Source: Bifidobacterium catenulatum DSM 16992 = JCM 1194 = LMG 11043
GTDB lineage: Bacteria; Actinomycetota; Actinomycetes; Actinomycetales; Bifidobacteriaceae
Assembly: GCF_001025195.1 (NCBI RefSeq)
Contig: NZ_AP012325.1
Location: 1,922,001 to 1,986,000, forward strand
Direction of reading: 5' to 3'
Length of the DNA: 64,000 nt
The notes under the pieces are model-generated. The model was not told the DNA's origin, made no database searches, and saw nothing but the letters and a program-made list of their open reading frames with translations. The position numbers were made by a program, and so were the translations under genes. Positions 30,509 to 43,718 of this stretch are shown one piece after another. Numbering within the stretch: the first letter of the stretch is position 1; each line of letters begins with the position of its first letter.

Positions 30509-31564
30509 CTACTCGTTGATTGCCCGGTCATTGTCACGCAACACCAACTGCACCGGCGCGTCGGTCTCACGTAAGGTCAGGCGAGCATGCATGATTTCAT
30601 GCGGCTGACCGAGAGTCTCCCCATTAATGAGTGTGAGCGCTTTATGTGCGGCTTTACGGCCCATCAGAAACGGATCTTGTTTCATGGTGGTCAGGTTCAT
30701 GATATCCGCATACTGACTGTCATCAAATCCGATAATCGAATAATCCCGCGGCGTGAGCTTGTCATACCGTTCCAGTCGCACAATCAGCGGAATCGCAATG
30801 GTGTCGGTTTGACAACAGATTGCATCCGGGAATTGATCAAGCGCCAACAACGAGGCCAAGGCACTGTCGGCGTAGCCACCATCGCGCGGCACTTCAAGCA
30901 CCTTCCAGTGCAGGTCGTGGCTTGTCTCAGCGGTCTGACAAGCATGGATGAAACCCTGACGACGAGCATCGATAGAGGCATTAAGCGAATCGGCGGCGCG
31001 CGAGCAGATGTACACGATGTATTTGTGACCGAGATTGATGAGATGCTGCGTAGCAATCATCATGCCCTCGTCGTCGTCAATGCATACGGTGGCATCGAAA
31101 TCTTCACGTCCCGGCGTATTGATACCAACGATCGGCACACGAATGCGCTTGAGCTGCTCAACTTCACGCGAATCGACGGCGAAGGAAGCGACGAATACTG
31201 CATCCACATTGCGACGTACCGGCAAAGTGGTGAAGAACCGTTCGCGGTTCTCAGCGGTATCGATATGCTGGAACAGTGAAATGTCATAGCCAGCACCATG
31301 CATGACATCATCCAACCCAGCAAGCACCCTGTTATTGAACCAACTGGTGATGTCTTCATTCATCAGCATCGCCGCACGATAGGTCAGGCCAGACTTGAGT
31401 GCCGTGGCGGAACGGGAAATGTTGAAATCAAGTCTGTCGGCGGTTTCCAACACCTTCCGACGTGTTTTATCGGATACCAAGTCAGGACGCGTGAAAGCTC
31501 GCGACACCGTGGAAACGGAGACGCCTGACGCTTTGGCCACCTCACGAATGCCTACTTTGGTCAT
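30509..31564 (-). CDS. LacI-family transcriptional regulator
   Basis: A 351-aa repressor: HTH at residues 4-25 (VGIREVAKASGVSVSTVSRAFT), the subgroup signature FNISRSATALKSGLTYRAAMLM, and a sugar domain with VCIDDDEGMMIATQHLINLGHKYIVYIC and IIGFDDSQYADIMNLTTM. A GGGGC-poor leader (AAAGGGGC) precedes ATG 31564. Neighbours are malQ downstream and a dead lacI upstream, so its target is not evident; the malQ promoter site is one candidate. Confidence 0.93.
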   Translation of the reverse strand: MTKVGIREVAKASGVSVSTVSRAFTRPDLVSDKTRRKVLETADRLDFNISRSATALKSGLTYRAAMLMNEDITSWFNNRVLAGLDDVMHGAGYDISLFQHIDTAENRERFFTTLPVRRNVDAVFVASFAVDSREVEQLKRIRVPIVGINTPGREDFDATVCIDDDEGMMIATQHLINLGHKYIVYICSRAADSLNASIDARRQGFIHACQTAETSHDLHWKVLEVPRDGGYADSALASLLALDQFPDAICCQTDTIAIPLIVRLERYDKLTPRDYSIIGFDDSQYADIMNLTTMKQDPFLMGRKAAHKALTLINGETLGQPHEIMHARLTLRETDAPVQLVLRDNDRAINE

Positions 31565-31640: not shown

Positions 31641-32312
31641 TCATACTGCCAACGTTGTCAAAAATGAAACGGTTAAAGAAGACACCGTACTTCTTATCCA
31701 CAATTGCAAACGAATGTAAACCAGCAGGAATGGATACGCCGCACATGATTCTAATAATGTATAAATCACTGTGATTCCAGTGTGTAAAAGTTTAAGGTAC
31801 CGCGTAGCGAGTCGCATCGCCTGCTCATCGTCGATGGAAACAGACAACGTAAAGGCGCTTTCAGGCAATGCATTAATGCCGACAAGCGGTAGGTTCGCAC
31901 TTTGCAAACGACTCGCCTCATCAGGGTCTATGTCGAAGGAGGGAATGATTACGGCATCAGCGTTGCGGCGAATCGGTAGGTTCTCGAAAAAAGTGCGCCT
32001 GTCTTCCTTGGTGGAGATGGGGTAGACGGAGATGTCGTAACCGGCCGGATTGAACACTGCATCAAGGCCCTCGTAAATTCGTGCGTTGAACTATGACGCA
32101 AAGCGATCGTTCAGCAATAGGGCAATACGGTACGTCCGCCCGGCCTGAAACACAGTGGCGGAGTGAGAGATCGAAAAATTCAGTTCATTTGCGGCAGCCA
32201 GAACCTTGTCACGTGTCTTCTTCGCTACCACGTCAGGATGCTTGAAAGTACGCGAAACCGTAGCGATGGAGACACCAGCCAGCTGCGCCACGTCTTCGAT
32301 ATTGGCTTGCAT
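31641..32312 (-). pseudogene. LacI regulator with nonsense codon and lost C-terminus
   Basis: From ATG 32312 the frame gives an intact LacI start (MQANIEDVAQLAGVSIATVSRTFKH, NFSISHSATVFQAGRTYRIALLLND). An in-frame TAG at about 32088 stands where the relatives have Trp (SWFN). The same frame continues to a recognisable DAVFNPAGYDISVYPI...LPLVGINALPESAFTLSVSIDDEQAMRLATRYL. After about 31805 the similarity is lost, so roughly the last 160 residues are missing. Clearly a decayed paralogue of the neighbouring intact lacI. Confidence 0.88.
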
Positions 32313-32467
32313 GCGCACTCCTTGCATATGATTAGCGCCGTCTTACGGCGATTGTCTCATTATATGCTGAATGCGTTTACATCATTGTCATACCGCCGTT
32401 ATGACGGCTGATTGTGCCAGACTGCTGCAAATGCCGGTAGGCAACCGACCTTCCATCCGATATGTCT

Positions 32468-33172
32468 TCAGCAGTTCCAACGCTCTATGACATTGTCACC
32501 CTTGTACTGGCTCAGGATGCAGTAATGCGCGGTATCGAGCCGCAGCAGACGGGCGAAATGCGGGTCGACGCCCAACCATTGCGAAGTAAGGATGCGCAGA
32601 ATATGCGCATGAGCCACCAGCAGCACATCGTGGCCGACGTTCAGCAACGGCAATACTCGTTCGATGGCGTCCCGGGTACGCGCGGCGGCCTCCTCCACGT
32701 CCTCGCCCGGACCGTTATGCACCGGAACCTGCTCGCCGGACGGCAATGTCTCAATCCAATCGCCTTCAAGTCCGGGGTTCAGCGAACGCGGACCATCCCG
32801 CCATACGTCCCAGGCGAAACCGCTGGCCTCGCTGACCTGCTGGCGTGTGCGCCCCTCGGCGCGACCGTAATCCCATTCGGCGATCTCGGGCAGGATCCTG
32901 TAATCGCCGTAACCGGCGAGCGCCGCGGTCTGGCGGGCACGGCGAAGCGGACTTGCGAACATGCAGCCTGGATCGAAACCGTTCGGGAAGGCCGAACGCA
33001 AACGCTCTCCCGCGGATTCGGCCTGTAGCCGACCGGCGTCGGTCAATGGAATATCAGTGCGTCCGGTATGCTGACCGGATTCGCTCCACACCGTCTGTCC
33101 GTGGCGCAACAGCACCAAGCGTCCGGGCGCAACAACGGAAGCGTCCTTGCTTCCAACATGATTTTCAGTCAT
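32468..33172 (-). CDS. Histidine phosphatase (phosphoglycerate mutase-like)
   Basis: A 234-aa member of the histidine phosphatase superfamily. The catalytic motif is LVLLRHGQT (His24), then RTDIPLTDAGRLQAE, ASPLRRARQTA, a central EWDYGRAEG acidic motif and the second histidine in VLLVAHAHILR. The pattern fits the small-molecule phosphatase branch (SixA/PhoE-like acid phosphatases) as well as cofactor-dependent mutases; I cannot tell the substrate. No ribosome site precedes ATG 33172; instead TAGAGT ends seven nucleotides before the ATG, suggesting a leaderless transcript. Confidence 0.88.
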   Translation of the reverse strand: MTENHVGSKDASVVAPGRLVLLRHGQTVWSESGQHTGRTDIPLTDAGRLQAESAGERLRSAFPNGFDPGCMFASPLRRARQTAALAGYGDYRILPEIAEWDYGRAEGRTRQQVSEASGFAWDVWRDGPRSLNPGLEGDWIETLPSGEQVPVHNGPGEDVEEAAARTRDAIERVLPLLNVGHDVLLVAHAHILRILTSQWLGVDPHFARLLRLDTAHYCILSQYKGDNVIERWNC

Positions 33173-33312
33173 ATCCCTACTCTAACCGACCCCGCCCATG
33201 AACCCCTGCACTTGCTCCCTCGTGTCTTCGGAAATCGCAACATCATTCCGCTACGCGCTTCGCCCATCCGGATTGGCAGGAAAGCACGTCGATCACGCAT
33301 TACTATGGAACC

Positions 33313-33681
33313 ATGAGTGAAACGCCAGATCTGGAATCTACAGCGGACCGTGTGGTAGCGGCCCTGCGCAACATCGACGGGAAAGTGAACGCCAAGCGCG
33401 ATCAGAGACTGAACGATCCCGATTCCTTCGGTGACAAAATCTTCAAATTCGCCATGCCTACGCTAGTCGGACTGGCGTTCGGCAAGATGTTCGAGATGGC
33501 GTGGAAGCAGAGCGTTGGCCGCAAGGCGACCCTTCCCGACGGCACCACCGACGCACGCAAGGACGCCATCCTCGGCATCGCCTTCGCCGTCATTTCCGCA
33601 GCCTTGGGCGCACTGGTCTCGCAACTGTCCGACCGCGGTTCCAAGGCCATCGTCAACCATCGCCACGCCAAGCGCAGGTAG
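33313..33681 (+). CDS. DUF4235-type small membrane protein
   Basis: A 122-aa protein with two hydrophobic segments (FAMPTLVGLAFGKMFEMAW and ILGIAFAVISAALGALVSQLSD) separated by a polar loop, and a basic C-terminus. The layout (membrane helix, MAWKQSVGRKA, loop, second helix) matches the actinobacterial DUF4235 family of unknown role. No Shine-Dalgarno; TACTAT ends 7 nt before the ATG, so translation may be leaderless. Divergent from the histidine phosphatase. Confidence 0.75.
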   Translation: MSETPDLESTADRVVAALRNIDGKVNAKRDQRLNDPDSFGDKIFKFAMPTLVGLAFGKMFEMAWKQSVGRKATLPDGTTDARKDAILGIAFAVISAALGALVSQLSDRGSKAIVNHRHAKRR

Positions 33682-33689
33682 CACGATCA

Positions 33690-34280
33690 TCACCGATCGT
33701 CCGACTTGCCCTCCGGGAAGATGATCTTGTATACGAAGAAGTAGATCACCATGGACACGCCTCCGGTGATGAACGTGACCAGCAGATTGTATACGGCTGG
33801 ATCGAACCGTGCCTGCGCCAACGGCAGCCACAGGCCGTTGATGGCGTTGCAGAACAATGAGATCAGCACCCATGCGATGAAGTACCACAGTATCTGATAT
33901 GCCACGTTGCCATGTGATTTGAACGTCACGTTGCGTTGCAGCGGGAAGTTGACGCACTGCGCCACGAATGATCTGATCTCATAGCTCAGGAAATATCCAA
34001 GGCCACCGCCGATCACCACTTCCCCGGCCGCATTGCGCGCCACCCCATAGCCAAGCACATTCCACGAGTAGTCGATGCCTGCGAACGATATCGGAATATG
34101 CGGCCACATGAATGCCGTGGAGGCCAGCCCCTCGCCAAACAGATACGGCAGGAACGTGAACAACGCATATTGCAGCACGGTGACCGCCAGACTGAACAGA
34201 TAGAACACGCCTATCTGCCAGACCCATTTTGCGGCCTTCGGATGATTCCTCGCAAAGGTTCGCCAAGGATTGACCGCCAT
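33690..34280 (-). CDS. GtrA-like membrane protein
   Basis: A 196-aa integral membrane protein with four to five hydrophobic helices and the signature CVNFPLQRNVTFKS, which corresponds to the conserved N-(F)-x-x-x-R-x-x-TF segment of GtrA-type proteins (lipid-linked sugar flippase helpers). Its start overlaps the stop of the GH2 gene by one base, making it the last gene of the GH3-GH2 operon. A role in moving a lipid-linked sugar is family inference only. Confidence 0.75.
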   Translation of the reverse strand: MAVNPWRTFARNHPKAAKWVWQIGVFYLFSLAVTVLQYALFTFLPYLFGEGLASTAFMWPHIPISFAGIDYSWNVLGYGVARNAAGEVVIGGGLGYFLSYEIRSFVAQCVNFPLQRNVTFKSHGNVAYQILWYFIAWVLISLFCNAINGLWLPLAQARFDPAVYNLLVTFITGGVSMVIYFFVYKIIFPEGKSDDR

Positions 34281-36673
34281 TATCTCACCTCGATTCGAGC
34301 CGTGGCCTCACCGTACGGACTGCTTGCCTTCACGCTGAGGATTCCCGTCTCGCAAGGCCTGATGATGGCCATCGCCTCGCCGTAGTAGGTGTCGGCGGTA
34401 TCGCTGCGATAGCTACGCTCGTAGTATGGGCAGGCGCTGCCAAAACCTAGGATTTCGCCGTTTTCCACTTCGATATGCACGTCACCTCGCAGTAATGGTT
34501 TGACGGTTCCCGCAGCGTCGGCATACATGAACCGCACATATGCGAGCCCGTCACCGAGCGCGATGCGCTCCGCTTCCGGCACGGCATGCAATCTCGTTTC
34601 CTTGCCCGCCGTGGCCAGTGATGTTCTCGCGATTTCCACGCCGTCGGCGTCATACGCCACCGCCGTCAGACTGCCCGGCCTGTAGACGGCCGTGAATGTC
34701 ACGCGAGCGTCACGTCCGACACGAGCCGACCCGATTTCACACCCGTTCAGCAAGAGTTTCACCCTGGCGGCACGCGCATATACCTCCACTTGCGTGCGTT
34801 CACCTTCCTGACCGTCCCACGACCAACTTTCGACCGCATTGGTCATCTTCCAGGCGGACGGCGAATGTTCACGGCCAAGACCGACCGGCACCACGCCGAT
34901 CGCAATCAGTTTCAGACCGAATGCGACCTGAGTGTATGAAGCCTCCGCCAAAGGCTTGCCGGTCAGGTCGAATCGACCGGCGCCCGCACTCACCCAGCCA
35001 AGTGATCCGTCGAAGTTCTTGGCATATTCCGCATACTCCTGCGAGCCGATACCGACTTCCCCGAGATAATCCATACCGGACCATACGAAATCACCGATCA
35101 GCCGCGGATTGCTCTGCGCCAAATCCCAGAATCGCGCCGCATCCGAGCAGAAGGTTTCCGAGCCGACGATCACGCGATTCGGATATCTGTTCAGGTCATG
35201 CCTGTATCGGCGGATGCCGTAGTTGTATCCGGCAACGTCCATCACGGCGAACGCGCCGCGCGTCTTCCAATCGCAAGGAGGCAAGGTCGCACCGAACTTC
35301 ATGAAGTCGGCTCCCATGATGCCTGCGAGCCGATTGAAGAATTCGCTGCCGACCGCCTTCTTCTTGCCGGAATGTTCGATTTCCTTCATCGCTTTTTCGT
35401 CGGTATACACGCCAAGTCCCATAGATGACAAGAAATTGAAGAAGATATTGACGCCGCAGGTCACTGGTCTGGTCGCATCGAGCCCATGCAGATATTGCGT
35501 CATGGCATCGGTCAGAGCGATACCTCGCGGCTGCGCGGTTTCCGACACTTCATTGCCGATCGAATACATGATCACGCTCGGATGGTTATAGTCCTTGGCC
35601 ACCAGATCAGCCAGATCATCACGATAGTTCGCCTCCACTTCAGTGCCGTAGTCGTAGCGGGTCTTGTGGATGTACCAGCCGTCCACATACTCGTCGAGCA
35701 TCAACATGCCCAGTCGGTCATAGGCGTCAAGCAACGCCTTGGAACAAGGATTGTGCGCGGAACGGATGGCATTATAACCGCCGCCTTTCAGCAACGCCAC
35801 CTTGCGTTCCTCGGCAGCCGGATATGCGCATGCACCCAGCAGTCCGTTGTCATGGTGGAGGCAGCAACCACGCAGGATCACACGTTCGCCATTGATACGG
35901 AATCCCCGTCGCGCATCACATTCCACCGTACGCACGCCGAAGACCTCACGTTGCTCGTCATCACCGAACCGCACCACACAGGTGTAGAGATTCGGCTCAT
36001 CGGTGTTCCACAGGCGAACATCGGGAATCACGCATTCCTCATGCATGAGATTGCCCTGCCCATCGAGCCGATCCGACAACGCCTTGAATTGCGCCATGGA
36101 CCTGCCATCGACATCAAGAACGCTCACATATACGACTCCCGGATGGCTGGTGCGTACGTCGACCGCGATGCGTCTGGTACGGTAATCGACCGTCGTTATG
36201 CGCACGCCGTCGGGCATGATATGTCGCTCCGGCATGACACATAGCCATACCGGACGATAGATGCCGGTACCGGAATACCAGCGACAGCTCGGCTGGTCGC
36301 TGTTATGCGCTTCGACCGTCAACACGTTGTCGCCTTCGGCTATGTACTCGCTCAGATCCGCATAGAAGCCGGAATAGCCATAATCATGGGAGGCGATCAG
36401 CCTACCGTTCAATCGTATGCGGGCATTACGGTAGACACCTTCGAACTCGAGCAGGGTGAGATCACCGGAAGATCTGCGAATGTCGGCGGAAGAGAAATGC
36501 TTGGTGTACAGGTAGTCGCGAGCGCTGTACCAGCCGCTGTTCACTCCGGATGGGCTGTCGGCGCTTTTCGGATCCCACTGCATGGCGTCGTGGGGAATGG
36601 TCACCGGCACTTCCTCGGCCTCGGATGCGGCCGGACGGCACATCCAGCCGGTATTGAATGGGATTCTGTTCAT
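34280..36673 (-). CDS. GH2 family beta-galactosidase-like glycosidase
   Basis: A 797-aa cytoplasmic protein (no signal peptide). Domain order is a sugar-binding jelly roll (RIPFNTGWMCRP...WYSGTGIYRPVWL), an immunoglobulin-like domain, a TIM barrel with acid/base Glu in MYSIGNEVSE (about 374) and nucleophile Glu in VIVGSETF (about 504), then two C-terminal beta domains. The short barrel and IPHDA motif fit GH2 beta-galactosidases of the BgaB/DUF4982 kind, but other beta-linked substrates are possible. The start is ATG 36673; an upstream GTG 36697 lacks a ribosome site. Third gene of the operon starting with GH3. Confidence 0.88.
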   Translation of the reverse strand: MNRIPFNTGWMCRPAASEAEEVPVTIPHDAMQWDPKSADSPSGVNSGWYSARDYLYTKHFSSADIRRSSGDLTLLEFEGVYRNARIRLNGRLIASHDYGYSGFYADLSEYIAEGDNVLTVEAHNSDQPSCRWYSGTGIYRPVWLCVMPERHIMPDGVRITTVDYRTRRIAVDVRTSHPGVVYVSVLDVDGRSMAQFKALSDRLDGQGNLMHEECVIPDVRLWNTDEPNLYTCVVRFGDDEQREVFGVRTVECDARRGFRINGERVILRGCCLHHDNGLLGACAYPAAEERKVALLKGGGYNAIRSAHNPCSKALLDAYDRLGMLMLDEYVDGWYIHKTRYDYGTEVEANYRDDLADLVAKDYNHPSVIMYSIGNEVSETAQPRGIALTDAMTQYLHGLDATRPVTCGVNIFFNFLSSMGLGVYTDEKAMKEIEHSGKKKAVGSEFFNRLAGIMGADFMKFGATLPPCDWKTRGAFAVMDVAGYNYGIRRYRHDLNRYPNRVIVGSETFCSDAARFWDLAQSNPRLIGDFVWSGMDYLGEVGIGSQEYAEYAKNFDGSLGWVSAGAGRFDLTGKPLAEASYTQVAFGLKLIAIGVVPVGLGREHSPSAWKMTNAVESWSWDGQEGERTQVEVYARAARVKLLLNGCEIGSARVGRDARVTFTAVYRPGSLTAVAYDADGVEIARTSLATAGKETRLHAVPEAERIALGDGLAYVRFMYADAAGTVKPLLRGDVHIEVENGEILGFGSACPYYERSYRSDTADTYYGEAMAIIRPCETGILSVKASSPYGEATARIEVR

Positions 36674-36783
36674 GATGGTGCTTTCAAAGACGTTCACGAA
36701 GGAAGGTCGTCATTCGGGCGCAAGAACGATCGTGGCGCCCCTTCGCCCGAACGACGTCTGACAAATGACGGAGGGCCGGCAGC

Positions 36784-37191
36784 CTACTTACGCTTACGCA
36801 TAAACGACGACACCATGAGCATCAGCACGGTGACTGCGGTCAGCACGGTCACCGTCATGACCGGACCGAACAGGCTCTGGTCGCCGAACATGTTCAGATT
36901 CATGAAATGGCCGACGAACGTATACATGCATTCCATGACGAACGCACACCATGCGATCATGCCTATCGCCGGCGTTACGGCAATCAGCCAGTCATTGTCA
37001 AGAGGTATGGTCGCGGCCTGCGCAAGCACGACCAACACAAGCGGTGCGATGACCCACACGTTGTATGAGCCAGCGGCAACGGCATACATGGCGTAGGCAA
37101 CCAGTGAGACGATGGCCATCACACCGGCGGCGAGTCCTAGGTAAAAGCCGATAGTTCTGTTGGAGAACATGGATGGAGTTCTGCTATTCAT
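36784..37191 (-). CDS. Small four-helix membrane protein, unknown function
   Basis: A 135-aa protein of almost entirely hydrophobic segments (IGFYLGLAAGVMAIVSLVAYAMYAV; NVWVIAPLVLVVLAQ; LIAVTPAIGMIAWCAFVMECMYTFV; FGPVMTVTVLTAVTVLMLMV), predicted four helices with a basic RKRK end. I do not recognise a family. It begins 9 nt after the GH3 stop, so it is cotranscribed with a membrane-anchored GH3 and lies before GH2. A role in secretion, anchoring or uptake of the GH3 product is speculation. Confidence 0.8.
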   Translation of the reverse strand: MNSRTPSMFSNRTIGFYLGLAAGVMAIVSLVAYAMYAVAAGSYNVWVIAPLVLVVLAQAATIPLDNDWLIAVTPAIGMIAWCAFVMECMYTFVGHFMNLNMFGDQSLFGPVMTVTVLTAVTVLMLMVSSFMRKRK

Positions 37192-37200
37192 AATGATTCC

Positions 37201-40200
37201 TCACTTTCCCGTCGCGGTTTCGGATTCGACCTTGACCGTTTCCCGCGCATTCTTGCCTCGACGTCCGGAACGCCACATCATGTAGGCGCAGCCAAGCGTC
37301 ATCAACGCAAACGCCGCATCCACACCGAAGATCGCGTAACGCCACCAAGGGGTGACTTTGACCACTTTGGCGTTGGCATCCAACCCGTTGATCAGGCTGG
37401 TACGAGTCAGCGCATAGTGGAAGTTCTTCATTGAGGTGCGCAGATAGCCGAGCATATCGCCGTCGTCATTGTCTTCGATCTGATTCTTGATGCCTGCGGC
37501 CGCGGTATTGCCCGGATCGATGCAGTAGGTGGTCACGCCTGCTGCCAATGATGACGGGAAATGCGACTTGTAGGAGCCGCCGGCCACGCCGTCGGTTTCG
37601 ATCATGCCCTTAAAGCCCCATTCGTTGCGGATCACCTGAGTGGTCAGCGCGGTGCTGGCTGAGGACCAGACCACACCGAGTCTGTTGAACGACATCATCA
37701 AAGCGGTGGCGTTCTCGTTGCTGACGATGCCTTCCACGCCCTTGAGCGCACCCTCGCGGAATGCCTGCTCGTTGAAGAACATGTTCAGACCTTCGCGATA
37801 CAGCTCCTGATCATTGCCTGCAACATGCTTGACACCCTGTGCGAAGCCTTTCTTCTGAGCAGCTGAAAGTTCCACGAGGTTGTCAAGGTAGACCATGATG
37901 CTGTCTTCGGACCAGTATTCGCCATTGCGCCCGCCGAACGGAGTGCGGTGCAGATTGCCGCCACCACCCCATCCGACCGGGGTCTTGGCATACAGGGCTT
38001 CCTCACCGACCAGTTCGCCACGACGTTGCATGCGTCCATAATCCCAAGTGCTGGCGAGCACATTGGTCGCCGGATACAGGGTGACGTCACGGGCGTCACC
38101 GTACTCTTTGGCGTAGGTATTGCCGCCGACGCTGGCGGTACCGTCACCAGCCGCATACGCCGGTCGGTTCACGGAAGCCGCTTCGGCCGTGCCGAACAAA
38201 TCGGAAAGCTGGGTGGTCATCTCATCGATGGTCATTTCGTCAAGATATTTGTTCCAGGTCTCGTCATCGTTGTAATCGACGTCTTTCATCATCACGAACG
38301 TCAGACCATTGTCGGCTCCCTGCGTGTAGTCGCTGACGGACTTGGAATCCTTGGACTGCCGATACAGATCACCCTTAAGCAGTTCGATCATCTTGCCGGT
38401 AGCGGTCATCTTGACCGGTTCGGTCGGGAAGGTGCCTTTCCAATCGGAACGGGTCAGATAGGTGACGGCACCATCCTTCCAATAGTTCGCGTCGGCATCC
38501 TCGAACCGGTTGGTGACCCGTTCGCCCGCATCGGATTTGGCATAGGTCTTGGTGTCGACGTCGTCATACGACCACCGGTAGGTTTTGGCCGCATCCCCCT
38601 CCACCGGCTTGCCATCGAAGTCGGTCATACCAGTGGCGTTTTCGGCCGCAAGTACATTATTCAAAGCATCATGCGCATTGTCGCCAATGGTGAAATAGTA
38701 GTCACCGGCGCTCAGAATATAGCCCTTGGCCTTGGTGTAGTCATAGCTGGCCAACAGGTAGCGGTCCACCGTAACGTCCACGGTTTCGGAAGCACCCGGC
38801 TGCAATGTCTTGGTACGGCCTTAGCCGGCAAGCTGGATGGCGGATTTCTCGACCAGATTCTTCCGCTCATATTCACCATACGGGGTCTGCGCATACAGTT
38901 CCACTACAGAGGCACCCGCAATATCACCGGTGTTCTTCACCGTTACCTTGGCGGTGAATTCATCCTTGTCACGGTCGTAGCTCACACCGTCGAGCGTCTG
39001 TTCAAAAGTGGTGTAGCTCAGACCGTACCCAAACGGATAACTGACTTCGTCCGCATAGTTCCATGCCGAGGCACCATGCGAAGCTCCGACCGAGCTGGCC
39101 GCTCCGCTGCCCGGATTCGTCACGGCGTCCGCGTAGCGGGTCTCATAGTATTTATAGCCGACATAGATGTTCTCGGGCTGTACGGTCACATTATCGATAT
39201 TGACCGGCTTATCGCTGACTGCGGCGTTCACTTCATCGACGTTCGTCCATTGGTTTGAGTTCTGGCTGGAAGTGTGCGCGGCCGGCGACGACATGGAATC
39301 GACGGCATACGTGTCGGTCAAACGGCCCGAAGGGTTGGCCTTGCCCACCAACAGATTGGCCACTCCTTCGAAACCACGCTGCCCTGGATTGCCGATCCAC
39401 ATGCAGGCATCCACACCGTAGTCATCAAGCCAGCCGACCTCCATCGGAAAGGCGGAATTGAGCAGCACGATGGTCTTGGAGAACTTGCCGGAATCCTTGA
39501 TCATCCGCAGCAGGTCCTTCTCGTCCTGATGCAGACTCAGAGCACTGATGCCCTCCGGATCCTTCATCATCATCTCCTTGTCTTCACCGCCTTCACGGGC
39601 AAGCATGACGATGGCGACATCGTGGTAATCGTCCTGCCAGCTGGCCTTGAGCTGATCGGTATAGAACGATGCCGGCTCCTCGCCAAGCACCGGGGCGTCA
39701 TTCAACGCGCCATTCGAACGTGGATCGCCGGAAACCTGCAGGTTGTTGCTGGCCACACGCTTGGTATCGCTCTTCGAATAGGCGTCAAACAGAGTGTTGT
39801 TCACCGAGAAACCGGCATGTTCCAGTGCGGATTTCAGATCAATCACATATTTGCCGATGTCGGCGGCGCTGTTGGCGCCACCCGGGCTGTAGACCGGCTG
39901 CACCACGGCGTGGCCGAACAACGCGACATGTTTGTCTGAGGCAAGCGGCAGCGTGCCGTCGTTGTTGCGCAACAGCACCGAACCCTCCTCCTGCTCAAGC
40001 ACGGACTCGCCGTACGCGTCGGCGATGAGCTTCTGTAGATTTTCGGCATTCAAGTCGCCATATTCGCTGGCGTAGTACGTAGTGTTTCCGCCGCCTTCAC
40101 CGGCGACGATTCTCGTGCTGGACGTTCCCAGCGCGGAGTTGATCGTTCCCGCATACATGTACGAGCATTGCGTCCCACAGATGCCAAGCACCAGCAATGT

Positions 40201-40251
40201 GCCTGTCACCGATGTGAGCCCTCGCCACAGCAGACCGGAATTCCCTTTCAT
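37201..40251 (-). pseudogene. Membrane-anchored, domain-permuted GH3 glycosidase with in-frame stop
   Basis: One reading frame of about 1,016 codons is interrupted only by a TAA at 38821-38823 (LAG-stop-GRTKTLQPGA). Before the stop: an N-terminal membrane helix, then the domain normally C-terminal in GH3 (EGSVLLRNNDGTLPL, DACMWIGNPGQRGFEGVANLLVG) and the Fn3-like domain (YPFGYGLSYTTFEQ). After it: the domain normally N-terminal (GGGNLHRTPFGGRNGEYWSED, KHVAGNDQE) with the candidate nucleophile Asp in GMIETDGVAGG, then a second membrane helix and polar tail. Such permuted GH3 enzymes are known from gut bacteria. TAC to TAA by one substitution is the likely cause. The 534-codon second part has a TTG at 38805 that could restart, but with no obvious ribosome site. 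Confidence 0.87.
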
Positions 40252-40341
40252 CTCGACTCCTTCGTTGTCACATGTTGATACCGACATCAATGTCAATTCC
40301 ATGGTGCGCGGCACGGCCACCCCCTACCTTCCCGGATGGCG

Positions 40342-40412
40342 TAACTGGTCATTCCCAGGGGCATAACTGGTTCTTTCGCCATTCGACCCGAGCATGTGAC
40401 GTTTCCTATAAT
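40342..40412. promoter_or_regulatory. Direct repeat (candidate LytTR site) and response-regulator promoter
   Basis: TAACTGGT occurs at 40342-40349 and again at 40364-40371, exactly 22 bp apart, in the 184-bp spacer between the divergent GH3 operon and the response-regulator gene. LytTR regulators bind paired direct repeats about two helical turns apart. Downstream lies TATAAT (40407-40412) without a good -35, as expected for an activated promoter. Confidence 0.68.
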
Positions 40413-40435
40413 GGAATCCGTCGCAATGAGGAGGC

Positions 40436-41152
40436 ATGAACACCGTGAGGATCGCAATCATCGACGATGACGCCGACGAACGCAAGACCCTGCAGGCATC
40501 GTTCGAACGGCTTGCGCAGGAGAGCGGATCCGCAATCGTCATCATTGAATTTGCCGGCACCGATGATTTTCTTGACGGCTACGACCGCTCCTTCGACCTG
40601 ATCTGCATGGATATCGACATGCCCGGCACCGACGGCATGTCCGCCGCACAACGCCTACGTCAGATGGACGCCGATGTTCCACTGGTATTCGTCACCAACA
40701 TGGCGCAGATGGCGATTCATGGCTATGCCGTACATGCGTTGGATTTCATACTCAAACCCATCAACTACTACTCCTTCTCCATCAAAATGCGCGGTATTCT
40801 GGCACTGATCGGCAATCGTCGTAGGAAATCGCTCGTTTTCCCGACGACGGACGGTTTTCTACGCATTTCATCCGACAATCTCTACTATGTGGAAGTGCGT
40901 GGGCACCATCTGTCCTTCCACACCACACAAGGCGTCATCCGGCAACGTGACTCCCTACGCAACTGGGAAGCCAAACTGGAGGGATTGCCGTTCGAACGCT
41001 GCAATAACAGCTATCTGGTCAATCTCAAGCAGGTTACGGCCGTGGCCAAGGACTCCGTGCAGGTCGGATGCGACTGGCTGCCAATCAGCCGAACCAAAAA
41101 GAAACCGTTTATGAACGCACTCACCGAATACATGGGAGGCACCAGCGTATGA
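40436..41152 (+). CDS. LytTR-family response regulator
   Basis: A 238-aa AgrA/ComE-like regulator. The receiver domain (residues 4-125) has the acidic pair IIDDD, phosphoacceptor Asp59 in ICMDIDMPG, and Lys in FILKPI. The LytTR DNA-binding domain (about 140-235) has RISSDNLYYVEVRGHHLSFHT, FERCNNSYLVNLKQV and LPISRTKKKPF. GAGGAGG precedes the ATG. It overlaps the sensor kinase gene by 4 bp. The direct repeat upstream suggests control of the divergent GH3-GH2 operon and of itself. Confidence 0.93.
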   Translation: MNTVRIAIIDDDADERKTLQASFERLAQESGSAIVIIEFAGTDDFLDGYDRSFDLICMDIDMPGTDGMSAAQRLRQMDADVPLVFVTNMAQMAIHGYAVHALDFILKPINYYSFSIKMRGILALIGNRRRKSLVFPTTDGFLRISSDNLYYVEVRGHHLSFHTTQGVIRQRDSLRNWEAKLEGLPFERCNNSYLVNLKQVTAVAKDSVQVGCDWLPISRTKKKPFMNALTEYMGGTSV

Positions 41153-42449
41153 TCGACCACGCCTGGCTGCAGGTTTCCTACATGGCACAGATCATCGTGG
41201 CCTGCCTACTGTTCATGATTCCGGTCGCAAAACGACGTCGTTTCCCCGCACGATTCGCTTCATGCACCATTGTTCTGCTAATGATCGCCTATATGTTCGG
41301 CGCCGCCGTCACGGTACCCGACAACCTGCTGTTGGCCATACTGTATTGGCCTGCATTCGCGGTCATATGCCTTCCCGCAGTGGCGTTGTGTCTGCAGGCG
41401 GGATTGTCGGAAGTACTCTACTGCACCATCTGTGCGAACGCCACGCAGCATGCGGCCAACGAATGCTATCTGGCGCTCAGCATCGCACTCGGACGCACAA
41501 CGCCGATCTGCCCACGCTCCTCAACGGACTGTTGACCACGGTGATCTATATCGCCATCTACGGCGCGTTCTTCATCATGTTTGCACGCAAACTCGCAGTG
41601 CATGGACATTATCGGGTGAATCGCAATGACCTGTTCCCCATGGCCTGCATTCTGCTGTTCGTGTGGGTATTGGGCGTGTTGTGCCATGATGATGTCTCGC
41701 TCCATGGCGTGGTCTACCACATCAGTGACGCATTATGCTGCTTTTACATCATGTGGGCTCAGCGCAGCAATCATGACAAGGCCGAACTGCAGCGCGAACT
41801 CGACGGCGTACGATACACGCTGCTGCAGCAACAGAAGCAGTATACGGTCAGCCAGGAGACGATCGACATCATCAATCGTAAGTGCCACGACCTGAAACAT
41901 CAGATTCGCACGCTGCAGACCATGCAGGAAAGCCCGGAGCGTGACGCATACTTCGCCGAAGCCGAACGGGCGATCATGATCTATGACACCCGCATCGACA
42001 CAGGCAACAAGGCCCTCAATACCGTACTGATGGAAAAAGGCCTGTACTGTCAATCTCACGATATTCAACTCACCTGCATGCCGAGCGGCGATTCACTGGA
42101 CTTCATGCAGGTCGCGGATATCTATGCACTGTTCGGCAACGCGCTCGACAATGCCATCAACGCCACTATGGAACTGAATGACCCATCCAAGAGGGTAATC
42201 AACGTACGCTTCTCATCACAAGGCAACCTGATGCTGATTCAGATTCAGAACTATCATCAGCGTCGGCTGCGTTTTCGTAATGGCCTGCCCATTACGACGC
42301 ATCAGGATGCCACCCGACACGGATTCGGCATGAAAAGCATGCTGCACACGGTCGAACAGTACGGCGGCACCATGCAGGTGGATGATACCGACAGTGTGTT
42401 CACGTTGCGGATCCTGCTGCCGAAGAATCCGGAATCCTCTACCGGCTGA
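41149..42449 (+). pseudogene. AgrC/ComD-like sensor histidine kinase, frameshifted
   Basis: ATG 41149 overlaps the regulator stop. The first frame gives about four membrane helices and ends YLALSIALGRT near 41490; the second gives HNADLPTLLNGLLTTVIYIAIYG, two more helices, a coiled segment, the dimerisation motif INRKCHDLKHQIRTL with candidate phospho-His in HDLKHQ, the N box FGNALDNAINA and a G box RHGFGMKSMLHTVEQYGG. One missing base between the two frames explains the break. The repaired length of about 433 aa is normal. If real, the sensor would be dead and the regulator orphaned. Confidence 0.85.
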
Positions 42450-42497
42450 ACCAAGGCATCCTTGCGTAATCCTGCAAAACGGACGAAAATGGGTGAC

Positions 42498-43277
42498 ATG
42501 AGCAATCTTCTTCACAATGCCACTGTTGACACTCTGCTGGAACGTCGTTCCATCCGCAAATTCAAGTCGAAGCCGCTGGGGGATGATGTAATCGAAACCC
42601 TTGAAACCGTTGCACAGCATGCGGCGAGCAGCCAGTTCCTCAATGACTGGTCCGCAATCCGCGTGACCGATCCCGCAGCCAAGAAGCGTCTCGCCGAAAT
42701 CGGCGGACAGCCGTATATCGCCACCGCGCCACTGCTGTATGTGTTCGTACTTGACGAACACCGCAATGCCGCAATCGCTTCCACAAAGGGCGTAGATACC
42801 ACTTCCGACACGTTTACGCTGAATGGCAGTTACCGCTACTCACAGGCCCAGAACGATGCCGTACTGGCCCTGCATGCGATGGAAACGGCCGCATACTCAC
42901 TCGGCCTTGGCTGCGTGATTCTCGGCTCGCTGCTGAATGACGTTCCGGCGCTGATCGATCTGCTGAATCTTCCGGAATACACGTACCCTGTGCTGGGACT
43001 TGCGATCGGTAAGCCCGATCAGGATCCTGCACTTAAGCCGCGTATGCCGCGTTCCATGCAGTTCTTTGAGAATGAGTATCCGTCGAACAATGAGACGTTG
43101 CTTGCCGGTTTGCAAGATTTCGACGAGGAAGTGCATCGATATTACGATTTACGCAATACCGAGCGCCCGGTTGATACGTTCAGCGATCAGATCGCATCAA
43201 ATGCGGTCGATCCCGGTGTGACCAGCAAGACCGTGGCTCCAAACGCCAAGCGCCAAGGCTTCCGCCTCGAACGCTGA
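42498..43277 (+). CDS. NADPH-dependent nitroreductase / FMN reductase family
   Basis: A 259-aa flavoprotein of the nitroreductase superfamily (NfsA-like). It has an FMN-phosphate arginine pair in ERRSIRKFK, AASSQFLNDWSAIRV, ALHAMETAAYSLGLGCVILGSL and LGLAIGKPDQDPALKPRMP. It reduces nitro compounds or quinones with a reduced nicotinamide; the natural substrate is unknown. ATG 42498 (MSNLLHN) is preferred; 42489 and 42462 are upstream in-frame options without good ribosome sites. It lies 48 bp after the sensor kinase but its function is unrelated. Confidence 0.92.
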   Translation: MSNLLHNATVDTLLERRSIRKFKSKPLGDDVIETLETVAQHAASSQFLNDWSAIRVTDPAAKKRLAEIGGQPYIATAPLLYVFVLDEHRNAAIASTKGVDTTSDTFTLNGSYRYSQAQNDAVLALHAMETAAYSLGLGCVILGSLLNDVPALIDLLNLPEYTYPVLGLAIGKPDQDPALKPRMPRSMQFFENEYPSNNETLLAGLQDFDEEVHRYYDLRNTERPVDTFSDQIASNAVDPGVTSKTVAPNAKRQGFRLER

Positions 43278-43285
43278 CGGAACTA

Positions 43286-43537
43286 CTACTTGCGGCGTGG
43301 TTTGTAACCTTTTTTGCGGGAATGCGGTTTAATCTGCTGATTGAAAGGCACGTACGTGTAGCTGGATTGTGGATCGCGATGCGTGAGATGCCAAGTTCCG
43401 CAGAATTCGCACCGATAGACCCAAAGTTCAGTGCCGCGTTCACGCCAACTTTGGTCGGCGGCCTGCTGGGCTGTTGCTTTGTCGTGATACATGATTTTGT
43501 TCGATTCGACACAGCGTTTGGGTACGAAATAATGCAT
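43286..43537 (-). CDS. Small Cys-containing protein, unknown function
   Basis: An 83-aa basic protein with YRCEFCGTWHLTHRDP in its middle, a CxxC plus two His that could bind zinc like a single finger, and a Lys/Arg-rich end (HSRKKGYKPRRK). I do not recognise a named family; the sequence pattern (PKRCVESNKIMYHDKATAQQAAD) recalls small actinobacterial or phage-associated proteins that pair a short knuckle with a basic tail. Convergent with the nitroreductase gene, 8 bp apart. Confidence 0.7.
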   Translation of the reverse strand: MHYFVPKRCVESNKIMYHDKATAQQAADQSWRERGTELWVYRCEFCGTWHLTHRDPQSSYTYVPFNQQIKPHSRKKGYKPRRK

Positions 43538-43718
43538 AGTTCTTCAGTCTATTCAACCATCGGATAAGCGCAAGAGGCTCCCCCTGAAATTCCTGAAATC
43601 CCTCGGCGTTCTAGATCTCCCGGCGCGTGGAATAATCCGGACGCCGAGCAACGGGAAAGGCCCGACGGGAACCCCCGAGGCAATGGGCTCCGGTCGGCGG
43701 GCCGGCACAACAAAGCAT

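Follow-up and report, generated by a model that had tools for sequence, protein, structure and literature searches.

A probably decayed copy of a glycosidase-linked, Agr-like module with a conserved direct repeat in Bifidobacterium catenulatum

Results

Genes and features of the locus

The window (the whole stretch of 64,000 nucleotides of Bifidobacterium catenulatum DNA that was analyzed) contains a two-component system that faces a glycosidase operon. The genes and other features are the following, in window coordinates:

32467–43275, no strand: block with 98.5% identity to genome G027, extending into the flanks
33639–42485, no strand: cassette, absent from five related genomes
33690–34280, minus strand: GtrA-like membrane protein of 196 aa, Pfam score slightly under the cut-off
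34280–36697, minus strand: GH2 glycosidase, 805 aa (Pfam)
36784–37191, minus strand: membrane protein, 135 aa, four hydrophobic segments, no Pfam match
37201–40251, minus strand: domain-permuted GH3 gene, hydrophobic segment at each end, TAA codon at 38821–38823
40338–40349, no strand: distal half-site GGCGTAACTGGT, core TAACTGGT at 40342–40349; kept in locus L034, present as TAACCTG in L035
40360–40371, no strand: proximal half-site GGCATAACTGGT, core TAACTGGT at 40364–40371, 22 bp from the distal half-site
40383–40412, plus strand: likely regulator promoter (TCGACC, 18 nt, TATAAT), −10 at 40407–40412
40436–41152, plus strand: response regulator, receiver and LytTR DNA-binding domain, 238 aa, intact (Pfam PF00072, PF04397)
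41149–42449, plus strand: gene for an AgrC-like GHKL histidine kinase, frameshifted by a one-base difference near 41505

Both domains of the regulator score above the Pfam cut-offs (58.6 bits for PF00072 and 51.4 bits for PF04397), which identifies it as a LytTR response regulator, and its Asp59 is invariant among 12 aligned relatives. The relative of the kinase in L034 (G027) is intact, 433 aa long, and matches PF14501 (HATPase_c_5) with 84.8 bits. A polytopic membrane sensor, an HDLKH-type histidine motif and HATPase_c_5 assign this kinase to the AgrC/ComD type, and His247 is invariant in 40 relatives. A structure model built from 40 relatives places seven helices in the sensor portion and lacks any extracellular domain. 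By E-value, the best PDB match of this model is the cytoplasmic part of AgrC (2.2e-7), narrowly ahead of another sensor kinase type (2.3e-7), and whole-length TM-scores against the PDB matches are low (0.27 by query length).

The relative of the GH3 in L034 is also intact (a 1039-codon frame, 1016 aa from the ATG). Pfam recovers the domain order Glyco_hydro_3_C, Fn3-like, barrel in this relative and in the two window pieces, which is the order of permuted, GlyA1-like GH3 enzymes; the window copy is split by the stop. Assessed by alignment, the catalytic residues of the intact relative are the acid/base Glu223 in the sandwich and the nucleophile Asp887 in the barrel. A model based on 27 relatives aligns over about 930–950 columns with the two permuted GH3s whose structures have been solved, GlyA1 (5k6l-o) and a beta-glucosidase from Paenibacillus (5wug/5wvp), against about half that length for the other GH3 structures listed. 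Among 106 permuted GH3 frames of at least 850 aa (duplicates included; 66 non-redundant), the catalytic Glu is kept in all 106 and the Asp in 105, the remaining frame being cut off. The hydropathy threshold is passed at both ends by 95 of the 106, which are therefore predicted to be doubly anchored.

A sequence-only reading of this DNA had described a LytTR two-component system facing an operon for a surface GH3, a membrane protein, a GH2 and a GtrA-like protein. Pfam confirmed the LytTR regulator, the GHKL kinase, the GH3 and the GH2, but the GtrA-like protein fell just under its cut-off (24.2 versus 26.1 bits). The cassette combines glycosidases and a regulator with no recognised transporter, and thus falls outside the definition of a Gram-positive PUL. 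Nearby, a short LacI-like frame (31641–32057) lies beside a full LacI-type gene (30509–31564) and, judged by eye, is possibly a LacI remnant.

A direct repeat in the divergent spacer

The divergent spacer spans 184 bp (40252–40435), with the ATG of the GH3 (minus strand) ending at 40251 and the ATG of the regulator at 40436. The motif TAACTGGT is found twice in it, at 40342–40349 and 40364–40371, with 14 nucleotides in between and 22 bp from start to start, and each copy can be lengthened to 12 bp if one mismatch is accepted (GGCGTAACTGGT/GGCATAACTGGT). The final base of the proximal half-site is a C in the 98.5%-identical relative. What had been called a 22-bp direct repeat is therefore real and located in the divergent spacer, but 22 bp is its periodicity and the repeated unit is 8 to 12 bp long. 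An equally good 12-mer repeat was observed in 7 of 5,000 dinucleotide-shuffled spacers at lags of 20–23, and in 82 of 5,000 at any lag from 8 to 99. Allowing up to three mismatches, a 30-base pattern of the repeat presented one match in the 64-kb window relative to 0.09 expected (9 of 100 shuffles had one match). No RNA element was retained, as no Rfam family reached the gathering score in 33000–43600.

The repeat is conserved together with the gene pair, as the sequence-only reading required of a functional site: it is present in G047 (locus L035), whose regulator is 64% identical. In this genome, the GH3, the small membrane protein and the GH2 face the regulator and kinase in the same order, and the repeat lies at the same place with the same 22-bp spacing. 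TAACTGG is changed to TAACCTG in both half-sites, which represents a parallel change. We scanned the 112 genomes of the genus with a pattern covering both forms, and found it in three (G000, G027 and G047), once each and always at the GH3/regulator spacer; these are the three genomes that possess a regulator orthologue. Presence in these three genomes is given by construction of the pattern, so that the result of the scan is the single copy and the absence elsewhere. A reversed control pattern yielded one match among the 112 genomes (G103). The single copy per genome suggests that the regulator acts at one place. LytTR sites are characterized by short half-sites about two helical turns apart, and a direct repeat of this kind is both present and conserved here; we conclude from sequence that the repeat is probably a LytTR site, albeit a putative one.

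The best promoter found for the regulator is TCGACC-18-TATAAT, with 10/12 matches overall and 4/6 in the −35. The suggestion that the nearby promoter lacks a good −35 was thus half right, TCGACC being a poor −35. The center of the repeat is located 54–56 bp upstream of the regulator's −10 in L034 and L035, and −10 candidates lie 53–55 bp from the center of the repeat in modules L060 and L084 and 30–33 bp from it in L073 and L074. If transcription begins about 7 bases downstream of the −10, the center of the repeat would fall near −62 from the presumed start. For AgrA, the repeats are centered near −60 and the promoter spacers exceed the usual length (available portion of PMC4227749).

On the GH3 side, no −10 candidate was scored in the spacers of the window clade, and a GH3-facing promoter was rejected there. 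GH3-facing TANNNT candidates were detected 46–48 bp from the repeat in four compact modules belonging to three clusters (L073, L074, L060 and L084). The distance from the repeat to the GH3 side varies (about 102 versus 138 bp), whereas the distance to the regulator side is kept. This geometry suggests that the position of the repeat fits autoactivation of the regulator better than control of the GH3, with autoactivation as the better-supported target and the GH3 as a predicted one.

The module recurs within the genus

Relatives of the regulator were detected at E ≤ 1e-10 in 69 of the 112 genus genomes among the matches listed, which include up to 17 regulators in a single genome (G041) and 12 in another (G030). 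From part of these listed matches, we compiled 97 regulator frames in 83 loci, near-duplicates included, which correspond to 68 clusters at 85% identity. A GH3-like frame was found within 8 kb of 92 of the 97 frames and a kinase within 700 bp of 86. When considering frames of at least 90 aa within 8 kb, GH3 recurs in 61 of the 68 modules and the kinase in 59, followed by rarer partners: GtrA-like (11), GH2 (9), MFS sugar transporter type (8), ABC ATPase (5) and GH43 (4). An intact permuted GH3 (at least 850 aa) belongs to the chosen gene set of 55 of the 68 modules. No sugar transporter is a constant partner among these modules, which is odd for a catabolic locus.

We further analyzed this linkage in six complete genomes, sorting permuted and ordinary GH3s by hand among the matches listed and leaving out fragments (G027 near 1947302–1949225) and an ambiguous 811-aa frame in G074. 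Permuted GH3s were located within 5.5 kb of a listed regulator in 36 of 48 cases relative to 2.7 expected, and 33 of 39 listed regulators presented a permuted GH3 nearby. The distances between regulators and those between GH3s are correlated (Mantel r = 0.36; 53 pairs; 0/2,000 permutations). Judged by its gene content, the window locus is one case of a recurrent LytTR/AgrC-like/permuted-GH3 module. Many of the regulators of G041 and G030 adjoin permuted GH3s around 1.02–1.15 Mb and 1.69–1.81 Mb, forming a large paralogous array.

Repeats in sister modules

We searched for direct repeats upstream of the regulators using one region per 85% cluster (65 regions from the 68 clusters; L058, L092, L105, L110 and L115, with truncated or uncertain starts, were omitted). 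Across the 65 regions, lag 21 ranked first of 36 lags in all 12 settings, with counts from 5 versus 1.0 to 15 versus 4.2. The strongest signal came from the regulator side of the divergent GH3/regulator spacers, where 7 of 12 carry a lag-21 repeat relative to a mean of 0.76 per lag; on the GH3 side of the same 12 spacers the excess was smaller, with 2, 2 and 3 spacers at lags 20–22 versus 0.80. In the 53 regulator upstream regions without a divergent GH3, the lag-21 signal was weak, and at the strictest setting lag 21 was not the top lag (4/53, with 5 at lags 34 and 54). Upstream regions of 46 linked, non-divergent GH3s presented a modest lag-21 excess at k9/8 (5 versus 0.82), and lag 48 led at k8/7. 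No lag enrichment was observed in 12 spacers of Actinomycetales, and 15 spacers from Clostridia and other groups gave a slight signal (3 versus 0.25) at one setting.

Repeats thus recur at 20–22 bp in divergent GH3/regulator spacers: TTGTCGTGAACG is found twice in L073 and L074, with one mismatch or none, TTGCATGAGC twice in L100 and CAACATATC twice in L038. No repeat was detected at the threshold used in the divergent spacers L075 and L039. The sequences of the half-sites vary from module to module, and in footprints examined cluster by cluster some clusters presented clear repeats, while visual inspection of others revealed none. The LytTR-like spacing noted from the window sequence therefore has counterparts in sister modules.

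The module beyond the genus

Permuted-query GH3 matches (E ≤ 1e-60) were found in at least 39 of the 297 genomes from the order, a count that takes in the genus of the window; this number is a lower bound because two candidates were scored per genome. We then considered 20 of these genomes, with one stretch from each and none from the window's genus. A regulator was located within the stretch, up to about 8 kb from the GH3, in 14 of these genomes, and a GtrA-like gene was present in 13 of the 20 loci, often with a second GH3. The association of the regulator-kinase pair with a permuted GH3, another GH3 and a GtrA-like gene is possibly the ancestral arrangement.

A scan of named genomes gave 80 loci among the matches listed, of which 16, mostly from Clostridia, belong to the regulator subfamily (cut at E ≤ 1e-75 to the model of genus regulators). 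A full permuted GH3 was found in 7 of these 16 loci and in 2 of the 64 others (P = 1e-4; Fisher test; 80 loci listed); in two further subfamily loci the stretch stops partway through a GH3, and several others end at a contig end.

This arrangement, with the regulator and kinase in the vicinity of both GH3s and the GtrA-like gene, was observed in L146, L147, L152, L155, L156 and others, all from other Actinomycetales families. In a rumen Oscillospiraceae contig (L203:187-5413), a permuted GH3 is divergent from a more distant LytTR regulator, and the pairing may thus have arisen more than once.

Probable decay and origin of the cassette

The TAA codon of the window GH3 (38821–38823) separates the acid/base Glu from the nucleophile Asp, and, if the divergent right end is set aside, the kinase frameshift near 41505 is the sole indel in the block shared with G027. 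The frames of the GtrA-like protein, the GH2, the small membrane protein, the regulator and the nitroreductase are open. Because the GH3 and the kinase are both disrupted, the system is probably no longer working in this genome; the stop and the frameshift are single-base changes, and may represent assembly errors. The second LytTR kinase of this genome (L076:10183-10974; G000:C1:2010282-2011073) aligns only as residues 1–114 and 332–478 of its L082 orthologue, which implies that the stretch with the phosphoacceptor HDLKH at 290 is missing. Likewise, its second permuted GH3 (L131:6663-8795; G000:C1:2049162-2051294) aligns only over residues 91–801 of the 97%-identical L130 copy and looks shortened at both ends. 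A joint loss of kinase and GH3, apparently twice, fits the two acting as one functional unit.

Five related genomes, one of the same species, carry the flanks that end near 33638 and start near 42486 within about 270 bp of each other, which suggests that the cassette was inserted between these flanks (or lost in those genomes). The identity to G027 spans the flanks and points to a recent exchange of the whole block (32467–43275). The edges of this block are recombination-like, with differences rising inside the nitroreductase gene near 43030.

Candidate signals

The sequence-only reading had proposed control by a peptide or by cell density. AgrB (PF04647) matched none of the 112 genus genomes; the control search was strongly positive in C. 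difficile and C. oryzae and not in Cellulomonas (two of three control genomes). Agr quorum sensing is defined by AgrB together with AgrD, and AgrD was looked for in the cassette gaps. These gaps measure 51, 86, 9, 184 and 48 bp, the 184-bp spacer being the only one long enough for a short gene. It contains frames of 54–55 aa, one per strand, in which no likeness to a pheromone was seen by eye, and neither is conserved as an open frame in L035 (G047). The check for short peptide genes thus returned nothing convincing in the cassette gaps. With no AgrB match in the 112 genomes and the 55-aa spacer frame lacking a counterpart in L035, a peptide signal finds no support here. Because the modeled kinase lacks an extracellular domain, it could respond to a membrane ligand, to a small sugar or to the membrane helices of the GH3.

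Discussion

The DNA itself shows the parts of this locus and a repeat that is conserved together with the gene pair and occurs once in each genome that has it, as well as the pairing across the genus. From these, we infer binding, direction of control, signal and substrate. We consider it probable that the locus represents a self-contained, glycan-associated variant of the AgrC/AgrA type, whose regulator acts at the repeat to exert local control, and which has now decayed in this genome. The membrane-embedded GHKL kinase would phosphorylate the LytTR regulator, a dimer of which would bind the 22-bp-periodic direct repeat and act locally. The regulator would most likely activate its own operon, the repeat being centered about −62 from the presumed start. 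It would probably also act on the divergent operon encoding the membrane-tethered GH3, the four-helix membrane protein, the GH2 and the GtrA-like protein. The trigger would more likely be glycan-derived, or relayed by the GH3, than a peptide.

Several alternatives have to be weighed against this explanation. The repeat could be a chance occurrence without any role, which we regard as very unlikely: equally good repeats at any lag do appear in 82 of 5,000 shuffles and the repeat is common to only three of 112 genomes, but both half-sites changed in parallel in L035 and the enrichment in sister spacers is specific to the lag. If the repeat is a true site, it might serve only to autoregulate the regulator-kinase operon, the GH3 operon having its own promoter and not being a direct target. 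The constant distance to the regulator's −10 (54–56 bp), the variable distance on the GH3 side (about 102 versus 138 bp) and the lack of a scored GH3-facing −10 in the window clade speak for such a restricted role. Against it, four other compact modules (three clusters) present TANNNT on the GH3 side at 46–48 bp, and the 46 linked non-divergent GH3 upstream regions show the lag-21 excess at k9/8 (5 versus 0.82), although lag 48 leads at k8/7. The half-sites, moreover, resemble AgrA boxes when read in the GH3 direction. On balance, we find autoregulation alone rather unlikely.

The other alternatives concern the signal. Agr-type systems are the textbook peptide-hearing systems, and peptide receptors have membrane-embedded sensors. 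A kinase and regulator of the AgrC/AgrA type with a sensor modeled as membrane-embedded could therefore imply that an AgrD/ComC-like pheromone activates the kinase and that the glycosidases are density-controlled. This is highly improbable given that AgrB is missing from all 112 genus genomes while detected in two of three control genomes, that the cassette gaps hold no convincing peptide gene, and that only the kinase and the GH3 recur widely with the regulator over the 68 modules (frames of at least 90 aa). It is also conceivable, if somewhat doubtful, that the module remodels the cell's own surface glycans, the GH3 trimming a GtrA-built polymer and the system sensing the state of the envelope. 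This would agree with the GtrA-like protein encoded in the cassette, in 11 of the 68 modules and in 13 of the 20 loci from other Actinomycetales, with the predicted anchoring of the GH3 at both ends in 95 of 106 cases, and with the lack of a constant transporter among the 68 modules. However, the partners include GH2 (9/68) and GH43 (4/68), the permuted GH3 subfamily has been described from digestive-tract microbes that feed on plant polymers (available portion of PMC5104943), and the Butyrivibrio cases lie in PULs (available portion of PMC2914790). A more speculative extension of the glycan-associated Agr-type variant, which we hold to be quite unlikely, is that the doubly membrane-anchored GH3 is a sensory subunit whose state is read through the membrane by the kinase, which itself has no domain outside the cell. 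The module would then be a three-component glycan sensor, duplicated many-fold (up to 17 regulator matches per genome among the matches listed) and endowed with its own half-site code in each copy.

Parts of this arrangement have been described in other systems. In Butyrivibrio proteoclasticus B316, LytTR regulators were reported in 2010 near secreted GH3 enzymes with a C-terminal transmembrane helix, at three loci of that genome. In its available portion, that source (PMC2914790) devotes one sentence to the link, with no binding site, kinase type or permuted topology, and it concerns Clostridia rather than Actinomycetota. We found no apparent description of the LytTR-GH3 pairing in Bifidobacterium in the literature searched, mostly covered below the full-text level. 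The novelty suggested by the sequence-only reading thus appears to hold for bifidobacteria in that literature, but the LytTR/membrane-GH3 link had already been mentioned for Butyrivibrio. Staphylococcus aureus AgrC/AgrA (PDB 6e95, 6e52) shares with our system the GHKL kinase, AgrC being the best match by a narrow margin, and the LytTR regulator. Here, unlike in S. aureus, no AgrB was found, the repeat pattern is present at one place per genome and the partner is a glycosidase; the half-site also differs from the S. aureus AgrA box. The direct repeat centered near −60 and the over-long promoter spacer (18 nt in P2) are further common points with S. aureus (available portion of PMC4227749).

The permuted GH3 subfamily was defined in 2016 (available portion of PMC5104943). 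GlyA1 (PDB 5k6l-o) and the Paenibacillus enzyme (5wug/5wvp) resemble our GH3 in their permuted order, end-to-end fold match and conserved Asp and Glu, but the bifidobacterial protein has a hydrophobic segment at both ends, about 23% identity to them and a LytTR linkage. The Ros-7 PUL of Roseburia, another gut bacterium, associates an RR[LytTR] regulator and a kinase with a glycan locus (available portion of PMC5320581), but there the partners are GH25, GH43, GH51 and ABC and GPH transporters, with no GH3.

Our results indicate that the window contains a decayed copy of an Agr-like module that is linked to glycosidases, widespread and little studied. A single type of surface glycosidase accompanies this Agr-like subfamily across bifidobacteria, other Actinomycetales and some Clostridia, and no AgrB was found in the bifidobacterial genomes. 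If this pairing reflects glycan sensing, it would be the equivalent, in gut Actinobacteria and Clostridia, of the hybrid two-component systems known from Bacteroides, with a testable site, regulator and enzyme named for each copy.
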